Of a stretch of 42,583 nt of DNA, positions 1 through 42,583 are shown piece after piece. Numbering within the stretch: the stretch's first letter is position 1; the number at the start of each line of letters is the position of its first letter. The position numbers and the translations under genes are program-made. The stretch is taken from IMG/VR virus record IMGVR_UViG_3300032893_000119, positions 1 to 42,583 of that record; one strand, 5' to 3'. This DNA is from a virus. The notes beneath the pieces were generated by a model. It was not told the origin of the DNA and searched no databases. It saw only the letters and a list, made by a program, of their open reading frames with translations.

Positions 1-22
1 CATACTTTTGCCCATCTCTCCG
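1..22. repeat. Left copy of 22-bp terminal direct repeat
   Basis: The first 22 bases, beginning CATACTTTTGCC, are identical to the last 22 bases of the window. The cupin gene is uninterrupted when the two copies are merged. The repeat therefore marks either a circular assembly with overlapping ends or a circularly permuted genome. It is too short to be a typical T7-like terminal repeat. The non-redundant length would be 42561 bp. Confidence 0.9.
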
Positions 23-303
23 TCGTCGGAAGCGGATTTTTTCGGATCACTCGTGGGGAAGGAGCCGGAGCCGAAACCTTCGAACTCGGCCCCGGCGACA
101 CCATCGAAATCCCAGCCGAAACCGTGCATGCCGTCCATGCAATCACCGCTGGGACGTGGCTGTGTATACACAGGACGGACGTTACCGACCTCGCAGAAAT
201 AGACAAATCGCTTATTCACCAACCCGCAACCGACCATGCGCCACATCATCAAGATCGGGCAAAACGTACCCGTGCTGCCCCTGCACAACGCGATCCTTCG
301 TAA
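1..303 (+). CDS. Small cupin-fold protein, 3' part (gene starts at 42478 across the join)
   Basis: This is the downstream part of a 128-residue protein whose start lies at 42478. Reading through the merged 22-bp repeat gives one open frame ending at TAA 301-303. The protein has both cupin signatures. Motif 1 has His27 and His29, with His33 where Glu is usual, followed by Gly40. Motif 2 runs from Gly60 and has Pro66 and His71. A four-histidine metal site is therefore likely. The N-terminus carries Cys8, Cys13 and Cys16, which could bind a second metal. The last 25 or so residues overlap the start of the next gene in another frame and look unstructured. The biochemical role is unknown. Cupins range from sugar isomerases and dioxygenases to non-enzymatic binding proteins. 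Confidence 0.75.
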   Translation, partial: HTFAHLSVVGSGFFRITRGEGAGAETFELGPGDTIEIPAETVHAVHAITAGTWLCIHRTDVTDLAEIDKSLIHQPATDHAPHHQDRAKRTRAAPAQRDPS

Positions 304-811
304 TCCAACGCTCTGGAACAGATATCCCGAGCGCAGTTTTCAAGGTTCGCCGCACGAGGATATCGATGACATCTGGGTGCGGTGCCGCGCTCGATCTGCC
401 TGGGACCCGAAGCACCCGGAAAAGTTTATGGGCGTGCATGATTCGGTGTGGTATCCCGAATACCACGAACTCAAGAGCGCGATCGATCCGATTCTTTTCC
501 CGCTCGCAATGAACGTGCAGGCCGACCGAATTGGCGGCATCCTGATCACGCGCGTGCCGGCGGGCAAATCGGTGAAGCCGCACATCGATCCGGGCTGGCA
601 TGCCAGCTATTACGACAAATACGCGGTGCAGGTGGCGGCGACGCCCGAGCAGAAATGGTGCAATGAAGACGGCGAAATGGTCACACTGCCCGGCGATGTG
701 TACTGGTTCGCAAACAACGTGCCACATTGGGTTACGAACGAAAGCGCGGTTGATAGAATCACGATGATCGTTTGCTTGCACCACGCAAAGTCGATCCCAC
801 AGACGACATAG
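236..811 (+). CDS. 2-oxoglutarate/Fe(II) oxygenase-like (aspartyl/asparaginyl beta-hydroxylase type) protein
   Basis: A 191-residue protein of double-stranded beta-helix type. It carries an HxD pair in the segment VKPHIDPGWHA near residue 120 and a distal His near VPHWVTNES, followed by a DRITMIVCLHH strand. This is the layout of aspartyl/asparaginyl beta-hydroxylase-like 2OG oxygenases. The only usable start is ATG 236, since a stop lies in frame at 200-202. No clear Shine-Dalgarno precedes it, so translation is probably coupled to the cupin gene, whose last 68 bases it overlaps. A cupin and a 2OG oxygenase side by side in a late operon suggests a protein or small-molecule tailoring step. 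The substrate is not evident, and the 2OG-binding Arg cannot be assigned with certainty. Confidence 0.65.
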   Translation: MRHIIKIGQNVPVLPLHNAILRNPTLWNRYPERSFQGSPHEDIDDIWVRCRARSAWDPKHPEKFMGVHDSVWYPEYHELKSAIDPILFPLAMNVQADRIGGILITRVPAGKSVKPHIDPGWHASYYDKYAVQVAATPEQKWCNEDGEMVTLPGDVYWFANNVPHWVTNESAVDRITMIVCLHHAKSIPQTT

Positions 812-819
812 GAGCAAGC

Positions 820-2157
820 ATGCCATTCGGATACGTGAGCGCAGGCCTGGGAGCCGCCAGTGCAATCAAGTCGCTCACCAGTTCCGGGGGCGGCGGTCAA
901 GGCCCTACGCCGGCCGGCTGGGTGGCGAACGCACAGGGGCTGACCCAGTTGGAGGGTGCGCTCAACCCGCAGTTGAACCCTCATAACGCCTACGCGGACC
1001 AGTATGCGTTGCAGATGGACCAAGCGAGCGGCTTGCAAACGCAAGCGCAGCAGATGGCGGGTCAGTTCAATACGGGTGCACAGAATCTCACCAATCAGCA
1101 GAACGCATTGTCGGGGCAGATCACCGACGCTGCGAACGCCTATCTGAACTCGGGCAATCAGGCGCAGTACATGGCTGCCATGGGCGGGCTCGTGCCTTCC
1201 TACTACGGGGCAGGCAACAGCGCGTTCAACCTGGGGAACATGCTCCAGAACCAAGCTGGGCAGGCGCAAGGCTATGGCAACCAGATCATGAATCTGGCAC
1301 TCGATCCGCAGCAGGCCCTGTTCAACCAACAGAATCAGTTGCAGCAGCAGCAAGCGCTTGCGAGCCAAGCTGCGCGCGGCATTGCGACCTCGGGTGTCGG
1401 CGCCGGGCTGTCGAACGACGCGACGAACAATTTCCTGATCAACTGGCAGAACCAGCAACTGGGGCGTGCCACGGCAGGTTTGCAAGCCTACGATGCCAAC
1501 AATCAATCGATCGCCGGGCTCGCGCAGGGTGCGAACCAGTCGTACACCACCGGGTTGCAGGACTACACGACCGGCGCCGGGCTGCCCTACAACGCGGCGC
1601 AGACGGTGTACAACAACAACCAAGCGGCTTATGGCAATCAGCAGAACGCGCTGACGGCGCAGCAGGCAGCGTTCCTCGCGCAGCAGCAGACGGCGCAGCA
1701 AGGCTTCGCGAATCAAGCGGGTGCGCTCACCGGCTATCAACAGGCGCTGGCGAATGCACAGAACAATCTTGTGTCGGGCAATGCGTGGCTGAACCAGAAC
1801 GCCGCCAACCTGATGGGCTACTACAACGGCAGCGTGCCGACGTGGAACCAAGGGCAAGCGGCTGCCACGGCGAACGGCTATGCCGGCATCGGCAACTACC
1901 TGGGCTCGGGCGGATACAACAACATGGTCGGCAACGGACAGTCGGGCCTCTCGGGCGCCTACAACACCGCGTACATCAACAACGCGGCGAACAACGGCGA
2001 CAGCTACGACTACCTCGCGAATCAAGGTAACTACGGAGCCGGCACGCCTTACAACGCCTACGCAGGTGCAAGCGCCTGGGCCGCACCTACGTCGAGCATT
2101 TACGACACGGCGGGCGGTGCCGGCGACTTGGCCGGCTTCGCTGCCTTGGGAGGCTGA
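820..2157 (+). CDS. Gln/Asn-rich virion protein, probable DNA-ejection protein
   Basis: A 445-residue protein, exceptionally rich in Gln, Asn, Ala and Gly, with long helical Q/A runs (for example around NQQNQLQQQQALASQA). It has no transmembrane segment. The start is ATG 820, because AGGAG at 810-814 sits five bases upstream; a longer frame from 772 has no such site. It is the first of three consecutive late genes ending in a transglycosylase-bearing protein. That order and composition match the internal (ejection) protein sets of podoviruses, such as P22 gp7/gp20/gp16 or the T7 gp14/15/16 type. The role is inferred from position and composition, not from a recognised domain. Confidence 0.6.
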   Translation: MPFGYVSAGLGAASAIKSLTSSGGGGQGPTPAGWVANAQGLTQLEGALNPQLNPHNAYADQYALQMDQASGLQTQAQQMAGQFNTGAQNLTNQQNALSGQITDAANAYLNSGNQAQYMAAMGGLVPSYYGAGNSAFNLGNMLQNQAGQAQGYGNQIMNLALDPQQALFNQQNQLQQQQALASQAARGIATSGVGAGLSNDATNNFLINWQNQQLGRATAGLQAYDANNQSIAGLAQGANQSYTTGLQDYTTGAGLPYNAAQTVYNNNQAAYGNQQNALTAQQAAFLAQQQTAQQGFANQAGALTGYQQALANAQNNLVSGNAWLNQNAANLMGYYNGSVPTWNQGQAAATANGYAGIGNYLGSGGYNNMVGNGQSGLSGAYNTAYINNAANNGDSYDYLANQGNYGAGTPYNAYAGASAWAAPTSSIYDTAGGAGDLAGFAALGG

Positions 2158-2159
2158 TC

Positions 2160-3815
2160 ATGTCGGTTGCGAACTTCGGCGCGTTCCTCGGAGGGCTCAC
2201 GCAGGGGCAGCAGAACGCGGAAAACCAGCGCGAGCGCGCTGCCTATCTGGCGATGATCCAGAAGCGGCAGAAGGACGCCGACGACGATGCGCAGGCCGGC
2301 AAGGATGCCCTCTTCGCGAACATCTTCGGCTCCGACAACATGCCGGCGCCCGTGGTGCAGCCGCCGACGACGCAGCCGCAAGCCGCGCAGCCCGGTCCGG
2401 CGCCGCAGCCGGGGCAGGCAAGCGTGCCGGCCGGCCCACCCCCCGGTGCAGGCGCCCCGCCGCAGCAAATGATGATGCCCGGCGCCACGCCCATGGGGCC
2501 GCAAGGCGGTCCGCCCCCTGGCGTCGGCATGCTGCCTCCGAGCCCGTACGCAGGTGCAGGCAACCCGATGGCTGCACCGAAGCCGGCGGCGCCGCCCGTG
2601 CCACAGCAAACCGGCGACGGCTATGAGCAGGCGAAATCCACGCTTGCGCAGATCAAGGAATTCCTCGATACGCCGGAAGCTGCGCAGATCGCGAAAGACC
2701 CGGCGCTCAAGGAAGCGCAGCAGCGCATGCACTCGTACATCGAGCAGCTTCGCAAGGCAGGTATCGACCCTTCGAACCCCGCAGCCGCGAAGCCCGATCC
2801 GATTCAGCAGAAGCGCCTGCAACTGCTGCACGAGGATGTGGGGCTCGCCGCTGCGGCAGCCGCCAAGCATGTGAGTGCGGACCGCACCGCACAGATGAAG
2901 TGGGGGCAGGAATTCGCGAACGTGCTCGTGCATCAAGAGAATGCCCGGCAGGCGATGAAGCGCGTCGAAGCGCAGCAGGCCGGCGCGACCGAGCGCGCAG
3001 GAATGAAGGGCAGTGGTAGCGGCAAGACCGATGCGCCAGCCTACGACGATCTGACGCCGGACAAGCGCACGTATGTGGAGAGCCTGATCAGCGCGTTTCA
3101 GCGCACGGGCAAGTTCCCCACCGGCACCGGGTACAACGATCCATTCAAAAAGACGGCGCTCGCTGAAATGGAGCGGCGCGGCATGGACATCAACGCTGGC
3201 GTGGGGAACAAGGCAGCAGACACCGCCGACGCAGGCACCATCAAGACGCTGACCGGGCGCAAGGGTGTGGTCGAAGAAACGTCGAAGATCATGCAGAACC
3301 TGGAGCCGCAGATCATGGACGTGGCGAAGCGCGTCATGGCGCAGCCCGGCATGTCCAGTTCGATGAAGTTGAACGAAATAGTTCAAGGTGCTCAGACCAA
3401 GTTCCGGGACAACGGAGATGTGCGGCAGTTGGTCAATCTGATGCAGGGTTGGAAGTCCGCCAATGCACGTCTGATGTCTCAGAACACAGGTGCCGGCGGC
3501 ACTCCGGTCTTCTCGCTCCACCGATCCGACGAACTTGCGAGCGGTGCCATGCCACTCAGTCAATTGGCCGGCGCGTTCAAGGCTGCGCAAACGGAACGTG
3601 AAGCGACCAAGAAAGGCTTGACCGACACGATCAACGAACATCAGTCAGCCATCGACAATCGCGGCAAGGGTGCAGGGTCGTCGAGCGGAGGTGCGATGTA
3701 CAAGACCAGCGATGGCAAGCAGTCGTTCAAGGCGAGCGATGTCGAGCGCGCAGCGAAAGCGGCAGGCATGACGGTTGAGGAATTCGCCAAGCGCAAGGGG
3801 TTGAGCGGTGGCTGA
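2160..3815 (+). CDS. Probable internal virion / DNA-ejection protein
   Basis: A 551-residue protein. The N-terminal helical stretch (QQNAENQRERAAYLAMIQ) is followed by a Pro/Gly/Ala/Gln-rich low-complexity linker at about residues 60-150. A long predicted-helical region fills the rest. It starts at ATG 2160, two bases after the upstream stop, with GGGAGG at 2148-2153 as ribosome site. Its end overlaps the next gene by 8 bases. Its location between a Q/N-rich virion protein and a transglycosylase virion protein supports an ejectosome component. No enzymatic motif was recognised. Confidence 0.55.
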   Translation: MSVANFGAFLGGLTQGQQNAENQRERAAYLAMIQKRQKDADDDAQAGKDALFANIFGSDNMPAPVVQPPTTQPQAAQPGPAPQPGQASVPAGPPPGAGAPPQQMMMPGATPMGPQGGPPPGVGMLPPSPYAGAGNPMAAPKPAAPPVPQQTGDGYEQAKSTLAQIKEFLDTPEAAQIAKDPALKEAQQRMHSYIEQLRKAGIDPSNPAAAKPDPIQQKRLQLLHEDVGLAAAAAAKHVSADRTAQMKWGQEFANVLVHQENARQAMKRVEAQQAGATERAGMKGSGSGKTDAPAYDDLTPDKRTYVESLISAFQRTGKFPTGTGYNDPFKKTALAEMERRGMDINAGVGNKAADTADAGTIKTLTGRKGVVEETSKIMQNLEPQIMDVAKRVMAQPGMSSSMKLNEIVQGAQTKFRDNGDVRQLVNLMQGWKSANARLMSQNTGAGGTPVFSLHRSDELASGAMPLSQLAGAFKAAQTEREATKKGLTDTINEHQSAIDNRGKGAGSSSGGAMYKTSDGKQSFKASDVERAAKAAGMTVEEFAKRKGLSGG

Positions 3816-6123
3816 CCAGCGCCTGCTGTACGAAGACACGGCGCGCAACGTCGCGTCGAAGTACGGCATTCCGCCGGACGTATTCGTTGCCATGATTGGA
3901 AAGGAATCCGGCTGGGACCCGGATGCTCAGGCGCCGGGCAGCACTGCGCACGGCCTGGGCCAGATGGTGAAGGGCACGGCGGCGCAGACCGGCACCAACG
4001 TCTACGATCCCGGGAGCCAGCTTGATGGCAGCGCTCGCTATCTGCGCCAGCAATACGACAAGTTCGGCGACTGGCATACCGCACTCGCGGCTTACAACCA
4101 AGGCCCGGGTGCAGCGCGCACGCCCGCCGGCCAGCAATACGCGAGGAACGTCATGGGCGGCAAGGACAGTTCAGTGGATGCGCTCCTGGCGCTTCCCGAT
4201 GTGGGCGAGAACGGTGATCATCCGCCAGAGGTGCAGTCGTTGCTCGCACTGCCCGATGTCGCGCCCGTGGCGGATACGTCGGACCCGAAGGGGAACATGG
4301 ACCCCCGCGACATCCGGCAGACGCAAGACTACGCGAACACCTTGGAGGAAGCCAAGCCGTCATGGATGGCGCGGGTCCGTCAAGGAATGACGGTCGGCGG
4401 ACCGGCGGGCCGCGCTGCACTGGAGCTTGCGCAGCCGGGCGTGGGCAACGCCGTTGCGCGCCGCGCGGTGCCTGTCGCAGTGGGTGCGCCTGGGGACTTC
4501 ATCGACTTCGCCGCTAACAAGGTGCCTCAATTCTTCGGCCGCGAGGGGCTTGGCGGGCATACAGGACTGCCGACTTCCGAAGATATCAGCGGCGTCTTGA
4601 GCCGGGCAGGGTGGGCGGATCAGCGCGATGCGCACCCGATCGCCAGCCAGATGGGCACTGCACTGGGCAGCGTGGTGCCGGTGGGTGAAGCGGCGCGTGC
4701 CGTGGTGAACCCCATCGTGCAGAAGACCGGGCAGGTGCTCGCCGACTACGGTGCCGGCGGGCAGATCGGCCGCGATATCAATCGGTTCGGGCAGCAAGTC
4801 GCAAACTTGGCGAACATGCGCCGCGCCAAGATCGTGGACGACGTACGTGCACCAGACGTAAAGCCGGGGCTGGCCCCCGTGCGTCAAGGCGAGGCGCCGA
4901 TCAAGCCGGCGGAAAACTGGAGCGTCGAAGGTCTGCCCGGCGTGCGCAAGGATGGGCGCCCCGCTGCACCGCAAGACCTCGATACCGAATTCGAGAACAG
5001 TGCGTTCGCGACCAAAGAGGGCATCAAGGCCGAGAAAACCGACATCCGCTCCACGATGGAGTGGCAGCGCATGACGAAGAAGCCGGAGGTGGACTTGGAG
5101 CCGATCAAGGATCACCTGACAGGTCTGATCGAAAACAGTGCAGGCCCCGGGCGCAAGGCAGCCATCGCGGCACGTCAGCACGTCGAAGAAATCGAGAACA
5201 TTCAAGATCCGGTTGCACGTTTCGAGCAGTTGGATCAGTTCAAGCGCGAACTGGCGAAGCGCGGCGGCTTCGAAGCCGGCACCGATGCCTCGGGCTACGC
5301 TGCGATTGCAGAAAAGCAGTCGCGCGAACTGCGCAACGTGGTGGATACCCAGTTGAAAGACTGGAAGCCATTCGAGAAATACACCACCGACTACGCGAAC
5401 GCGAGCGCGCAAGAGGCGAAGGCCAATTTCCTCAAGAATGTCGGCGAGCCCGAAAGCGGTGCTTCGTTCATGCGCGGTGCGTTCAAAGGCCCGAAGAATG
5501 TCGCGCTGGCAAAGAAAGCGCTCGGCGAGGGCGGCGATGCGAAGTTCGATGAAATGGCGAGCCACTACGTTGTGAGCCAGTTGCAAGGCAAGTCCGCCAG
5601 TGCCATCGAAAAGTGGAGCCTGAAGAACGAAGCCACGCTGCGCGAACTGCCACAAGCCGCACAGACCGTGCTGCGCATGCAGCAGCGCGCCGATCGCGTG
5701 CTCGCCGAGCAGGGGCTGTACGAAACAGCTTTGAAGCAGCATGCGACGAACCAAGCCATCGACGTGAGCGCCCTGACCGGTGCGCTCAATGCGCAGAAGT
5801 CGCAGGAAGCTGCCGAAGCTGCTGCACGCGCCACGGCACGATCGCTCACGCCGGCCATCACGGCGGTGCAGGTCGCGAAGACGCCCAAGGAACAAGCCAC
5901 GGCGATCGGCGGGTTGATCAATGAACTGCACGGCAAGGGCATGATCGACGACGCACAGTACAAGGTGTGGGCCGAGCAACTGTCGGCGATGCAGAAGTCG
6001 GCAAGCCGGCAGGCTGCACTTCAGACCATGGCGAAGTACATCAGCTATGCCGTCACCGGCAACTACCTTGTTTCGTTCGGCGGGCCGGCCGCTGCCAAGT
6101 ACATCGCTGCGGCTGCAAAATGA
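3808..6123 (+). CDS. Virion-associated lytic transglycosylase / ejection protein
   Basis: A 771-residue protein beginning with a soluble lytic transglycosylase (SLT) domain at about residues 8-110. It has the catalytic Glu33 in KESGW, the GLGQM motif at 49-53 and the AYNQG motif at 95-99. The rest is long and mostly helical, as expected for an ejected protein that crosses the periplasm. The start is GTG 3808, with AAGGGG at 3795-3800 seven bases upstream. Its likely job is local peptidoglycan cleavage during DNA entry. Its last residues are hydrophobic and Ala/Gly rich (YLVSFGGPAAAKYIAAAAK). It overlaps the next gene as ATGA. Confidence 0.85.
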   Translation: MADQRLLYEDTARNVASKYGIPPDVFVAMIGKESGWDPDAQAPGSTAHGLGQMVKGTAAQTGTNVYDPGSQLDGSARYLRQQYDKFGDWHTALAAYNQGPGAARTPAGQQYARNVMGGKDSSVDALLALPDVGENGDHPPEVQSLLALPDVAPVADTSDPKGNMDPRDIRQTQDYANTLEEAKPSWMARVRQGMTVGGPAGRAALELAQPGVGNAVARRAVPVAVGAPGDFIDFAANKVPQFFGREGLGGHTGLPTSEDISGVLSRAGWADQRDAHPIASQMGTALGSVVPVGEAARAVVNPIVQKTGQVLADYGAGGQIGRDINRFGQQVANLANMRRAKIVDDVRAPDVKPGLAPVRQGEAPIKPAENWSVEGLPGVRKDGRPAAPQDLDTEFENSAFATKEGIKAEKTDIRSTMEWQRMTKKPEVDLEPIKDHLTGLIENSAGPGRKAAIAARQHVEEIENIQDPVARFEQLDQFKRELAKRGGFEAGTDASGYAAIAEKQSRELRNVVDTQLKDWKPFEKYTTDYANASAQEAKANFLKNVGEPESGASFMRGAFKGPKNVALAKKALGEGGDAKFDEMASHYVVSQLQGKSASAIEKWSLKNEATLRELPQAAQTVLRMQQRADRVLAEQGLYETALKQHATNQAIDVSALTGALNAQKSQEAAEAAARATARSLTPAITAVQVAKTPKEQATAIGGLINELHGKGMIDDAQYKVWAEQLSAMQKSASRQAALQTMAKYISYAVTGNYLVSFGGPAAAKYIAAAAK

Positions 6124-7430
6124 AGATTCTTGTCATCGACTCGAATGCGCTGGCCCTGGACTACTGCCTTCGGTCGATGGCGGAAGGGCACGAGGTGCTG
6201 TGGTTCATCCGCGATCACAAGCCGGGCATTCGCACGATCGGGCAAGGGCTGGTGCCGAAAACGGGCGACTGGCGCAGGTACATGCGCTGGGCAGACTTGA
6301 TCTTTCTGCCCGACAACAGCGCATACATGCGCGACCTCCAACCGTTCGTCGATAAGGGCTATCCGATCTACGGTGCGAACGACTGGACTGCACGGTGGGA
6401 ACTGGAGCGCGGCACCGGCATGGATGTGTTGGAGGCGCACGGCGTGAAGACGCTCGGGGGTGAGTGCTTCACGAACTACGACAAGGCGATCGACTACGTC
6501 AAATCGACGATGGGACGCTACGTTTCGAAGCCGTCAGGGGATGCCGACAAGGCGCTCAGTTATGTCAGCAAGACCCCCGCCGACATGGTGTTCATGCTGG
6601 AGCGGTGGAAGCGCCTCGGGAAGCTCAAAGCCCCCTTCATTCTTCAGAAGTTTACGAAGGGTTGCGAGATGGCGGTGGGTGCCTGGGTCGGCAAAGAAGG
6701 CTTCGCAAGCCCCTGGTGCGAGAACTTCGAATTTAAGAAGCTGATGCCGGATGACCTTGGCGTAGCAACGGGCGAGCAGGGTACAGTCATCCGTTACGTT
6801 GAGCACAGCAAGCTCGCGGACAAGGTGCTGAAGCCGGTCGAAAGTTACTTGGTCGAGTGCGGGCATATTGGCTTCGTGGATGTGAACTGCATCATTGACG
6901 ACAAGGGCAACCCGTGGCCGTTGGAGTTTACGATGCGTCCTGGCTGGCCCATCTTCAACATTCAGCAGCAACTGCACCGTTCGACAGCATCATGGATGAA
7001 AAGTTCCCTGGAGGGAAAGTCGATTCGCTCGAACTTCCTGACCGACAAGATAGCGACCGGGATCGTGGTGAGTATCCCGGACTACCCCTATTCCTCGCGG
7101 CCCAGGGAGGATTCGTCGGGCATCCCCATCTACGGCTTGGACAAGTCGGAAGCGATGATTCACCTGTGCGAGTGCAAGGCGGGCCGGGCACCGGTCGATG
7201 TGAAGGGGAAAGTGAAGACGGAGCCGATGATCGTGACGGCGGGGAACTATGTGCTGGTGACGTGCGGAGTGGGCAAGACGGTGCAGGAGAGCCGCGAAGG
7301 GGCCTACGACGTAGCGAAGAGCCTGATTATTCCGAACTCCCCAGCGTGGCGGACGGACGTTGGCGAGCGCCTGAAATCCCAGTTGCCACAGATGCAGAAG
7401 CTGGGGTACGCGAAGGGAATGACCTTCTAG
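6120..7430 (+). CDS. PurD-like (phosphoribosylamine-glycine ligase-like) ATP-grasp enzyme
   Basis: A 436-residue protein laid out like PurD. A Rossmann-like N-domain starts MKILVIDSNA. Then comes a segment YPIYGANDWTARWELERGTG resembling the PurD region that precedes the ATP-grasp. The ATP-grasp core has YVSKPSGDADKA (lysine strand) and FVDVNCIIDD..PWPLEFTMRPGWP (metal-binding Glu and Arg strand). The C-domain ends NYVLVTCGVGKTVQESREGAYD. The GGREHA-type loop that contacts phosphoribosylamine in true PurD is absent, so a different acceptor is likely. It starts at ATG 6120, overlapping the previous stop as ATGA. Its late-operon location argues against simple purine supply. The reaction would be ATP-dependent carboxylate-amine ligation, substrate unknown. 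Confidence 0.65.
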   Translation: MKILVIDSNALALDYCLRSMAEGHEVLWFIRDHKPGIRTIGQGLVPKTGDWRRYMRWADLIFLPDNSAYMRDLQPFVDKGYPIYGANDWTARWELERGTGMDVLEAHGVKTLGGECFTNYDKAIDYVKSTMGRYVSKPSGDADKALSYVSKTPADMVFMLERWKRLGKLKAPFILQKFTKGCEMAVGAWVGKEGFASPWCENFEFKKLMPDDLGVATGEQGTVIRYVEHSKLADKVLKPVESYLVECGHIGFVDVNCIIDDKGNPWPLEFTMRPGWPIFNIQQQLHRSTASWMKSSLEGKSIRSNFLTDKIATGIVVSIPDYPYSSRPREDSSGIPIYGLDKSEAMIHLCECKAGRAPVDVKGKVKTEPMIVTAGNYVLVTCGVGKTVQESREGAYDVAKSLIIPNSPAWRTDVGERLKSQLPQMQKLGYAKGMTF

Positions 7431-14069: not shown

Positions 14070-14879
14070 TCAATAGTCTCCGCCGGGAGATTCGTCTTCA
14101 TCACCGTCGATGCACGACATACAAGGTTCGGGCGATGCAGCGTCCGAACCTGCAAAAGTTTCCCAGTTCCAGTGGCGTCCTAGACCCTTGACGTTTGCGA
14201 CCGGCGCCTGCCCTTCACCGGCCAATGCGCGGCGCTCCATCTGCACTGCTTTCCAATACAGCAGCGGATGCGTTTCAGCCAGCCACTTCACTTCGGGTTT
14301 GCGCGAGCTAGGGCAGTGCCAGCAAGCGGACTTTCCGGGCTGTTTAAGTCCAGCACGCACGATCGCGGCCACACATTCATCACGCGCCCACTTCCATTCG
14401 ATCAAAGGGTATTCCACTTGCAGGTGAGGTCGTTCGGGGATGGGTTTTTCCGACCGGTGGATTTCGCCAAAGTCGAAACCGACGAAATTGCGCACCTTGG
14501 TGACATCTCGTTCGGCCATCCACTTTTTCAGGTATCGCTGTTGAGGCTCCACCTTCCATTTCAAAGAGCACGACGAACGCCCGAATACCTTGGCTGGCAA
14601 CGTACCCAAGCGGAAGCATTCGCCGTACAAGGTGCCGTCCTTGATGCCTTGCGGCAATTCGTTGCGCACTACAGTGATCGGCGGAAACCCATTGTTCACA
14701 CACCACATTTGCATGGTCTTGAGGTGTTCGTAGGTTTCTGGCTTTTCGTCGCCTGTGTCCGCGAACATGATCAGGTCCGGGCGCATCGACCGTTCCTTCA
14801 TACCGATCAACATAGCGGTGCTGTTGGTGCCGCCGCCGTAGGAAACAACAATAGGGAGAGTCATGGTTGCGACTTTCAT
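14070..14879 (-). CDS. PP-loop ATPase, PAPS reductase-like
   Basis: A 269-residue protein with the PP-loop SYGGGTNSTA at 13-22, which binds ATP pyrophosphate in the adenine nucleotide alpha-hydrolase superfamily. FADTGDEKPETYEH follows, as in phage PAPS-reductase-like proteins. Conserved cysteines occur late in the protein (CWHCPSSR) and near the end (CMSC), possibly binding a metal or Fe-S cluster. Substrate unknown. Relatives adenylate substrates in sulfur transfer or base modification, including the DndC type, but no other DNA-modification gene is recognisable here. It starts at ATG 14879, overlapping the upstream stop as ATGA; ATG 14864 is an alternative. Confidence 0.75.
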   Translation of the reverse strand: MKVATMTLPIVVSYGGGTNSTAMLIGMKERSMRPDLIMFADTGDEKPETYEHLKTMQMWCVNNGFPPITVVRNELPQGIKDGTLYGECFRLGTLPAKVFGRSSCSLKWKVEPQQRYLKKWMAERDVTKVRNFVGFDFGEIHRSEKPIPERPHLQVEYPLIEWKWARDECVAAIVRAGLKQPGKSACWHCPSSRKPEVKWLAETHPLLYWKAVQMERRALAGEGQAPVANVKGLGRHWNWETFAGSDAASPEPCMSCIDGDEDESPGGDY

Positions 14880-36214: not shown

Positions 36215-37822
36215 ATGGGCATGCGCAACCCGCAGGTCTATAGCTGGTTGCCGGCGGGCCTGTCGGACAATCGCGAGTCCTTGACGAACACGATCGGGGA
36301 CTGCCGCGTCGTCAAGAATCTGATTCACGATCCGACTTCCAAGGGAGTGCTTGCACCGCGCCCGGCCAGCGTGCTGTTGACCAGCTTCGCCGGCTTCACG
36401 ACGCCGGGCGTCGTCAGCGGGCTCTATACGATCGGCTCGCGCGTCTACGGGCTTATCGCCTCGGGTCGCAATGCAGGCAAGGATGAGCCGTTTTGCTACG
36501 ACACGGCGACAAGCAGCTTCGTCACGATCAGCGGTATCACGAGCGCCAATTCGCCGAACACGCCTGCCACCACAGGTAACTGGGTGCCGCCCACTTTCGC
36601 ACTTGTCGGTTCGAAGCTGATGGTGACGCATCCCGGCTTCGTGGGCGGGACGAATTACTTCGGGTGGTTCGACTTGACGAACCCGGCGGCACCGGCCTGG
36701 AGTGCAGGCAACATCACGGGGGCGCTGCCTGCTTTCACATCGACGCCGACGTGCGTCGCGCAGTTCAATTCGCGCGCATGGTATGGCTTCGCCAATGGCG
36801 TGGTGGTCTTCAGTGACATCCTGGCGCCGACCGTCTGCACGCACGCCGACCAGTTCCTGAACCCGGGCGCGACTGACGCGGTGATCGGGTTCGCGCCGCA
36901 GCCGATCACGACAGGCACGCAAGGCATCTTGAGTGCGCTGCTGATCTTCAAGGCATCGTCGATCTGGCAAGTCACGGGCGACTACGCGAATACGAATTTC
37001 CCGCTCGCGATGAACAACCTGACCTCCTCGGTGGGGTCATTGAGCGAGCGCAGCATCACGGCAACGCCGAGCGGTACGTTCTTTCTCGCGAACGACGGCA
37101 TCCGTACCGTCACGTTGCAAGGCACAGTGAGCGAGCCGCAGAAGGATGTCATTTTCCCCTTCTACAACGTGAATCCGGCCAGCCGCGCGAGTGCAGACTA
37201 TGCGGCCGACGTGTACCGGATCAGCGTCACGAGCGTGAACAACCAAGGCACGCTCGGCAAGTTCGACTACTGGTTTTCGCTGCGCTTCAATCGATGGACC
37301 GGACCTCACGACTTCAGCTATGACGAGGTGGTCGCTTTCGGCAATACCTTCGTGCTGGCGTCGAACGATTATCCGGCGATGCTCTGGACCTCGAACCCGT
37401 TTCCGAGCAGTGCGGACACGTTCATCGAGCACGGCGCGCAGATGACGGTTGACTTGACCACGACGGTGATCAATCCTGAGCCGCAGATGGCGGAAAAGGC
37501 AGCCATCGAGATGGAGGTCAACTTCATCCCCTCGGCGCAGACGTACAACGTGCAGGTGCTGGATGCGAGCGGCAACCCGATCAATTCGACGACCCTTGTG
37601 AGCAGCGTAGCGCCGCACACGTGGGGCACCGGTACATGGGGTGGAGGGTGGGTATGGGCGCCGGCTCCGTACAATCTGGAGACATCGCCCCTCAACTTCG
37701 ATGAGCCCATCGTGTTCAAGCAGTGCGTCATGCGCTTCACCGGATCGAGCGCGCTCTATCTGCGCTTCGGGCACTTCAGCTTCCGCTATGAAGGGCTGGG
37801 TTACACGGGAGCCGACACATGA
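36215..37822 (+). CDS. Tail hub / DNA stabilisation-type protein
   Basis: A 535-residue, mainly beta protein starting MGMRNPQVYSWLPAGLSDNR. It has repeated strand units of beta-propeller look (VVSGLYTIGSRVYGLIASGR, FALVGSKLMVTHPG, GTFFLANDGIRTVTLQGTVS) and a C-terminal jelly-roll-like part (MRFTGSSALYLRFGHFSFRY). This layout resembles P22 gp10-type tail accessory or T7 gp12-type nozzle proteins. The start ATG 36215 follows GGGG by eight bases. It overlaps the fibre gene as ATGA. Confidence 0.65.
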   Translation: MGMRNPQVYSWLPAGLSDNRESLTNTIGDCRVVKNLIHDPTSKGVLAPRPASVLLTSFAGFTTPGVVSGLYTIGSRVYGLIASGRNAGKDEPFCYDTATSSFVTISGITSANSPNTPATTGNWVPPTFALVGSKLMVTHPGFVGGTNYFGWFDLTNPAAPAWSAGNITGALPAFTSTPTCVAQFNSRAWYGFANGVVVFSDILAPTVCTHADQFLNPGATDAVIGFAPQPITTGTQGILSALLIFKASSIWQVTGDYANTNFPLAMNNLTSSVGSLSERSITATPSGTFFLANDGIRTVTLQGTVSEPQKDVIFPFYNVNPASRASADYAADVYRISVTSVNNQGTLGKFDYWFSLRFNRWTGPHDFSYDEVVAFGNTFVLASNDYPAMLWTSNPFPSSADTFIEHGAQMTVDLTTTVINPEPQMAEKAAIEMEVNFIPSAQTYNVQVLDASGNPINSTTLVSSVAPHTWGTGTWGGGWVWAPAPYNLETSPLNFDEPIVFKQCVMRFTGSSALYLRFGHFSFRYEGLGYTGADT

Positions 37823-42477: not shown

Positions 42478-42583
42478 ATGGAAGTCGAACACGTTTTTTG
42501 TGACGGCGTTTATTGCAAACGCTGTTTTTTCGAAAGAGGAGAAAAAGATGTTCAGCATGCCCATACTTTTGCCCATCTCTCCG
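42478..42583 (+). CDS. Small cupin-fold protein, 5' part (continues at 1-303)
   Basis: ATG 42478 with GAGGTG six bases upstream begins MEVEHVFCDGVYCKRCFFER. The frame runs off the window end and continues after the 22-bp repeat to 303. The first cupin motif (His27, His29, His33) is split across the join. See the entry at 1-303 for domains and role. A second ATG at 42548 in another frame has an even better ribosome site (AGAGGAG) but opens a 71-residue frame without recognisable features. Confidence 0.75.
   Translation, partial: MEVEHVFCDGVYCKRCFFERGEKDVQHAHTFAHLS
42562..42583. repeat. Right copy of 22-bp terminal direct repeat
   Basis: Identical to bases 1-22. Matching stops exactly at 22 bases. 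The interrupted cupin gene closes in frame when one copy is removed, which supports circular closure. Confidence 0.9.

Follow-up and report, generated by a model that had tools for sequence, protein, structure and literature searches.

Our analysis of a short-tailed phage (podophage) genome points to two independent, late-expressed protein-modification modules that flank the DNA-ejection genes and may act on ejection or other virion proteins. We favor this reading tentatively, with somewhat less than even confidence, and its substrates are putative. The first module, a cupin and a 2OG/Fe(II) oxygenase in a slot upstream of the ejection genes, would most likely hydroxylate a virion protein on one of its side chains, with the cupin as its partner or as a second metal enzyme. 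The second would be a PurD-derived ATP-grasp whose translation is coupled to that of the last ejection gene. It would convert a carboxylate to an acyl-phosphate and link this to an amine that is not phosphoribosylamine; the acceptor would most likely sit on an ejection protein or another protein of the virion, to which a small carboxylate or an amino acid would be ligated. The data establish that the genes are present, their folds and conserved catalytic residues, the loss of the PurD signatures, the gene positions, pairing, coupling and purifying selection, and the replacement by other protein-modifying folds; protein substrates, ejection proteins as the targets and chemistry on the ejection proteins are all three points that we infer. 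Virion-protein targets are the simplest reading for late modifying enzymes encoded beside the ejection proteins; modification of virion proteins by late enzymes is plausible, and gene position strengthens it.

To get out of the capsid, ejection proteins have to pass a narrow portal; they then refold and build a channel across the cell envelope, and to our knowledge little is known about their covalent modification. If our reading is true, a gene slot with interchangeable modifying enzymes, together with a ligase common in uncultured podophages, would make ejection-protein modification testable.

Late enzyme genes amid virion genes

The window, by which we mean the whole 42,583-nucleotide stretch analyzed here, carries 22 identical bases at both contig ends (42562-42583 repeats 1-22); the genome is therefore circular or permuted, with a unique length of 42,561 bp. 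TerL, the portal, and the major head protein were all identified. Tail fibers and a lysozyme-type endolysin are also among the virion genes and separate the gp10/head-closure gene, whose equivalent in relatives is PF11134 / PHROG 578, from the cupin/oxygenase slot (Table 1). The early, minus-strand arm starts past the ATP-grasp gene, with a primase/helicase as its first gene, and also encodes a DUF932 protein (PF06067; 24639-25703, minus strand).

The initial annotation had described three metabolic-type enzymes, a cupin, a 2OG-oxygenase-like protein, and a PurD-like ATP-grasp, lying among virion genes. The three genes and their placement are confirmed, with the SLT-domain ejection protein, tail fibers, and endolysin as neighbors, and the assignments are borne out by family matches, motifs, and folds. 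Likewise, the ORFs scanned revealed no accompanying pathway for purines, sugars, or DNA modification. The interpretation that had been attached to the three enzymes is partly supported.

Table 1 Late enzyme, ejection, and related genes in the window
Feature	Coordinates	Strand	Basis
gp10/head-closure-like protein, upstream of slot	36215..37822	+	tblastn to relatives in 25 loci
Cupin gene, 5' part	42478..42583	+	ATG at 42478; crosses join via 22-bp terminal overlap
Cupin gene, 3' part	1..303	+	Continuation from 42478; stop about 303
2OG/Fe(II) oxygenase, proline-hydroxylase/AspH-like fold	236..811	+	Motif, AF2, Foldseek
Putative DNA-ejection protein A, first gene past slot	820..2157	+	tblastn to ATP-grasp phage loci
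Putative ejection protein B	2160..3815	+	Position and size as in relatives
Large ejection protein C, SLT transglycosylase domain	3808..6123	+	PF01464 9.6e-18
PurD-like ATP-grasp ligase, phage-specific subfamily	6120..7430	+	Sequence, AF2/Foldseek, tree
PAPS-reductase-like PP-loop protein	14070..14879	-	PF01507; PHROG 424

An enzyme slot next to the ejection genes

The counterpart of ejection protein A in relatives belongs to PHROG 598 ('DNA ejection'); the copy in the window has no PHROG match, and ejection protein B gave no family match in Pfam/PHROG-type searches. We defined the slot as the interval between the gp10-type head-closure gene and the first ejection gene, and it was visible in 54 ATP-grasp loci. 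Profile searches found a GNAT in 33 of these, a cupin in 12, an oxygenase in 8, a sulfotransferase-like protein in 3, and none of them in 5, and at least one of the four types lay just upstream of ejection protein A in 49/54 loci. GNAT and cupin/oxygenase come close to excluding each other, occurring together in 2/54 loci (Fisher 6e-7, not corrected for relatedness). The GNAT assignment is based on PF00583 above the cut-off, PHROG 1249 (acetyltransferase), and a profile match, weak in score, to acetyltransferases of solved structure. A sulfotransferase-like P-loop protein was also seen near the oxygenase in 8 loci (e.g., L195:2109-2585 and L199:10522-11046); it matches PHROG 10855 ('hydrolase'), and PF13469 just above the cut-off for L199. 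GroES-like (Cpn10) genes are found in the structural operons of relatives (L199:254-511, L199:7031-7321, and MW202796, L085:1618-1953).

At the other end of the ejection block, the stop of ejection protein C and the start of the ATP-grasp share 4 nt (ATGA). Divergent ejection proteins C (L018, L033, L059, L062) share a conserved [YF]xG-type C-terminal tail, and the codons of this [YF]xGxx(Q/E) tail vary, so a ribosome-binding site does not explain it. The same type of tail is present in L357, L359, and L360, which carry no ATP-grasp; its occurrence in ATP-grasp-free phages ruled it out as an acceptor mark for the ligase.

The oxygenase and its pairing with the cupin

The 191-aa oxygenase belongs to the 2OG/Fe(II) superfamily by its HxD...H triad, a 2OG-binding Arg about 10 residues past the distal His, and a DSBH fold. 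In an alignment with 11 homologues the motif reads H116-x-D118...H164...R174, with H116, D118, and H164 invariant and R174 conserved in at least 90%, and the AF2 model (pLDDT 91.9) shows a confident 2OG-oxygenase fold. Foldseek returned L-proline cis-4-hydroxylase as the best match, followed by AspH, prolyl hydroxylases, and others, including a nucleoside-antibiotic hydroxylase. The score for Aspartyl/asparaginyl beta-hydroxylase (PF05118) stayed below the cut-off (16.4 vs 22.6 bits). Because the best structural match of the model hydroxylates free proline, a small-molecule substrate is possible for the oxygenase.

A scan of viral contigs detected more than 400 oxygenase relatives, of which the best 80 were kept. 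A cupin homologue on the same strand, with a gap of at most 87 nt, accompanies the oxygenase in 61/82 loci (upstream in 55), and ejection protein A is the next downstream gene in 58/82. The cupin itself matches Cupin_2 above the cut-off (28.2 vs 27.2 bits), which together with the conserved histidines H27, H29, H33, and H71, in a metal-ligand-type pattern, indicates membership of the cupin superfamily at the sequence level; metal binding is predicted only. Its PHROG matches (24280/12032, labeled tail fibre adhesin) cover the cupin domain only. The cupin frame of the window extends 68 nt into the oxygenase gene (236-303) and homologous cupins stop earlier, which suggests that this phage has lost or displaced the original stop.

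A PurD-like ligase with altered substrate positions

The ATP-grasp protein (436 aa) matches PurD from end to end: a single-sequence phmmer search reached 2yw2 at 2e-17, and a 30-row profile gave 3e-30. GAR synthetases take all of the top 15 places among the Foldseek matches of its AF2 model (pLDDT 94.3) in the PDB, with a TM to the query of 0.68-0.76. The fold and the ATP/Mg Lys and Glu residues place it in the PurD-like branch of the ATP-grasp superfamily. The cut-off of the PurD equivalog (NCBIfam) is not reached (59.1 vs 288 bits). As the initial annotation had stated, the N-terminal GGREHA loop of PurD is absent from the sequence, which reads MKILVIDSNALALDY instead; the RFGDPE signature (PS00184) is also missing and the protein has EFTMRPGWP, with D290 changed to W/Y.

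We placed the ATP-grasp onto A. aeolicus PurD in an active-site map with 32 phage/prophage and 10 cellular sequences, using the residue roles given for PurD in PMC8880213. The residues for ATP/Mg and the acyl-phosphate are kept (E94, K137, E183, K206, E269, R273), four of them (K137, E183, K206, E269) being invariant in the family. Changes comprise K103>R, E185>Q, D212>E204, N285>T271, and E292>T/I, as well as the loops GDPE>GWP(I/T) and GGMGA>GE(Q/M)GT (GEQGT in the window). D212, N285, GDPE, and GGMGA are positions of glycine binding and of the signature, and most replacements are invariant across all 32 phage/prophage and 10 cellular sequences. Because the GGREHA, GDPE, and GGMGA loops are lost while the ATP/acyl-phosphate residues stay, the ATP-grasp is a ligase family separate from PurD. 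The same combination argues for other substrates: the enzyme should still activate a carboxylate as an acyl-phosphate, with a donor and/or acceptor other than those of PurD. The earlier expectation of a different acceptor is supported in the sense of substrates other than those of PurD. Against a viral structure library the best TM to the query was 0.42, and the PurD-derived ligase family is not represented there. A literature search, largely of papers available without subscription, found a PurD-like phage ligase described nowhere.

Distribution and cellular relatives of the ligase

Scanning viral contigs for the ATP-grasp gave 87 relatives, of which 80 were kept, mostly 46-65% identical. All 30 of the 30 ATP-grasp records tested have a TerL, mostly with 35-48% identity, which makes the ligase the more conserved of the two proteins. 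An alignment-based search was used for TerL relatives; a single-sequence search with TerL found none. The ATP-grasp is carried by 10/17 of the TerL-found contigs of at least 39 kb (near-complete related phages), and in two ATP-grasp-free relatives what comes after the homologous ejection block is a small ORF or, with nothing between, ORFs on the minus strand. The ligase is thus a common, facultative gene that keeps one fixed address, and the related phages that lack it while keeping homologous ejection proteins rule it out as an obligatory core gene. Its start overlaps the preceding stop in 40/48 evaluable loci, 34 by ATGA and 6 by 1 nt. Between close phage copies dN/dS is 0.05-0.07, indicating strong purifying selection.

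In two phages, LAGLIDADG inteins are inserted in frame inside the NTGEMGT/TGExGT loop of the ATP-grasp, one at GPN^TGEMG and the other at TGEMG^T (L348, on the contig of L216, and L349, on the contig of L199). Both start with Cys, and Thr comes next after each. Their positions fit an important active-site loop.

In the tree, a branch with full support separates the phage ATP-grasp sequences from the cellular ones. The cellular PurD-like family (loci L101-L166; TGEMGT, EFTxRxGYP) is found in archaea, Patescibacteria, Woeseiaceae, Parvularculaceae, and others. No conserved operon partner was seen in the loci inspected, and we dropped operon context as a route to function; in L153 and L157 the cellular gene has genes for glycogen synthesis and a second gene of ATP-grasp type nearby. 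The phage ATP-grasp, with this cellular sister family beside it, is a clean case of PurD re-used for another ligation.

Co-occurrence of the enzymes

Among 30 viral ATP-grasp records the oxygenase is present in 1 and the cupin in 5, and the ATP-grasp is present in 6/22 large oxygenase contigs. These counts rule out one three-enzyme pathway: the cupin, oxygenase, and ATP-grasp are two modules. The idea that the three would co-occur across phages held for the cupin-oxygenase pair, and the ATP-grasp joins both in Paraburkholderia prophage-like loci, but a single three-enzyme set did not hold. A PAPS-reductase-like enzyme had also been suggested as a partner of the late enzymes; it was found in 0/30 ATP-grasp records, in a weak search run without a positive control. 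The PP-loop protein of the window has the motif SYGGGTNS and the CxxC pairs CWHC and CMSC, and the C-terminal ECGxH catalytic motif of PAPS reductase (EC 1.8.4.8) is absent, so judging by its motifs it is probably not a sulfate-assimilation enzyme; we saw nothing that ties it to the late enzymes.

Alternative readings

A broader form of our reading, in which a conserved podophage locus of exchangeable acetyl-, hydroxyl-, and sulfo-type enzymes plus the PurD-derived ligase would modify the injected ejection proteins as a maturation of the DNA-ejection machine, is doubtful at present. Several points count against protein modification: the ATP-grasp is dispensable in the lineage, as close relatives with similar ejection proteins lack it; the tail motif of ejection protein C failed as an acceptor mark; and the operons of the cellular relatives are uninformative.

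The chief competing reading is small-molecule chemistry, in which the end of the operon would serve as a cargo site: the enzymes would act on host or pool metabolites (e.g., yielding an amino-acid amide or a hydroxylated amino acid), and their late position would reflect an accessory-gene site. The late-operon end does collect unrelated cargo genes as well. The facultative ligase, the oxygenase's match to a free-proline hydroxylase, and cellular ATP-grasp homologues that stand alone in scattered archaea and bacteria all fit this rival. However, the slot is tightly tied to the ejection genes, different modifying chemistries swap there, and the ATP-grasp is translationally coupled with no pathway partners found in the window; we regard metabolites as unlikely substrates overall.

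It is improbable that the proteins encoded in the slot act as chaperones or in assembly, with enzyme folds kept for binding and not for catalysis. P22 gene 14, annotated 'head morphogenesis' and 'virion stability factor', and T7 gene 13, a 'probable scaffold', occupy the same map position, yet the catalytic residues of the oxygenase and ATP-grasp are conserved, and no sequence link was detected from the slot GNAT family to P22 gp14 or T7 gp13. Modification of phage DNA or nucleotides, for which the nucleoside-antibiotic hydroxylase match would speak, is very improbable given that no DNA-modification genes were found in the window and that the enzymes are encoded in the virion operon and outside the replication arm, with GNATs and sulfotransferase-like proteins as slot neighbors. 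A role of the ATP-grasp as a genuine GAR synthetase (PurD, EC 6.3.4.13) that boosts purine synthesis is hardly credible despite its full-length PurD fold and C-terminal domain, with GGREHA gone, RFGDPE and GGMGA replaced, an equivalog score far below the cut-off, no other pur gene found in the window, and a published verdict against PurD identity for PurD-like proteins of haloarchaea that show similar losses (PMC3261824).

Comparison with known systems

With PurD of Aquifex aeolicus (2YW2) the ATP-grasp has in common the whole-chain fold (TM 0.70-0.76), the ATP/Mg lysines and glutamates, the acyl-phosphate arginine, and a C-terminal RxDxG; unlike 2YW2, it lacks GGREHA, GDPE, and E292, has GEQGT for GGMGA, and is about 20% identical. 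Brown et al. 2011 (PMC3261824) concluded that PurD-like proteins of haloarchaea in which GDPE is lost in the same way are not GAR synthetases. In the 'extra' haloarchaeal proteins Hlac_1553 and rrnAC0307 the GDPE aspartate is lost and the N-terminal loop is divergent, as is likewise the case in our haloarchaeal L144 and L155, which share TGEMGT/EFTxRxGxP with the phage family. By this correspondence, which we infer, L144 and L155 probably belong to the same family as Hlac_1553 and rrnAC0307; the haloarchaeal members differ from the phage ATP-grasp in falling in the cellular clade, with 30-33% identity to the window protein.

The slot also has positional counterparts. Pseudomonas phage YA3 (PMC7326022) carries a putative acetyltransferase, annotated DUF2833, upstream of its internal virion protein genes, the same late-operon position; that paper describes neither a cupin/oxygenase alternative nor an ATP-grasp downstream. 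The assembly genes P22 gene 14 (NC_002371) and T7 gene 13 (NC_001604) lie in the same map slot, directly before ejection-protein genes; as homologues of the slot GNATs they have no sequence support, and the analogy is positional only. With AspH and proline hydroxylases the phage oxygenase shares the double-stranded beta-helix, the HxD...H triad, and the 2OG arginine, whereas its family is about 190 aa long, cupin-paired, and located in a late operon. For phage ATP-grasp/amidoligase-type genes, Iyer et al. 2009 is reportedly a further reference. LUZ24-type podophages (PMC3890496) encode ATP-grasp, amidoligase, and glutamine-amidotransferase genes, and amide-bond chemistry has been proposed for phage ATP-grasps; the LUZ24-type ATP-grasp has 291 aa and lies in the early arm beside amidoligases, whereas that of the window has 436 aa, is of the PurD type, and is the last late gene.
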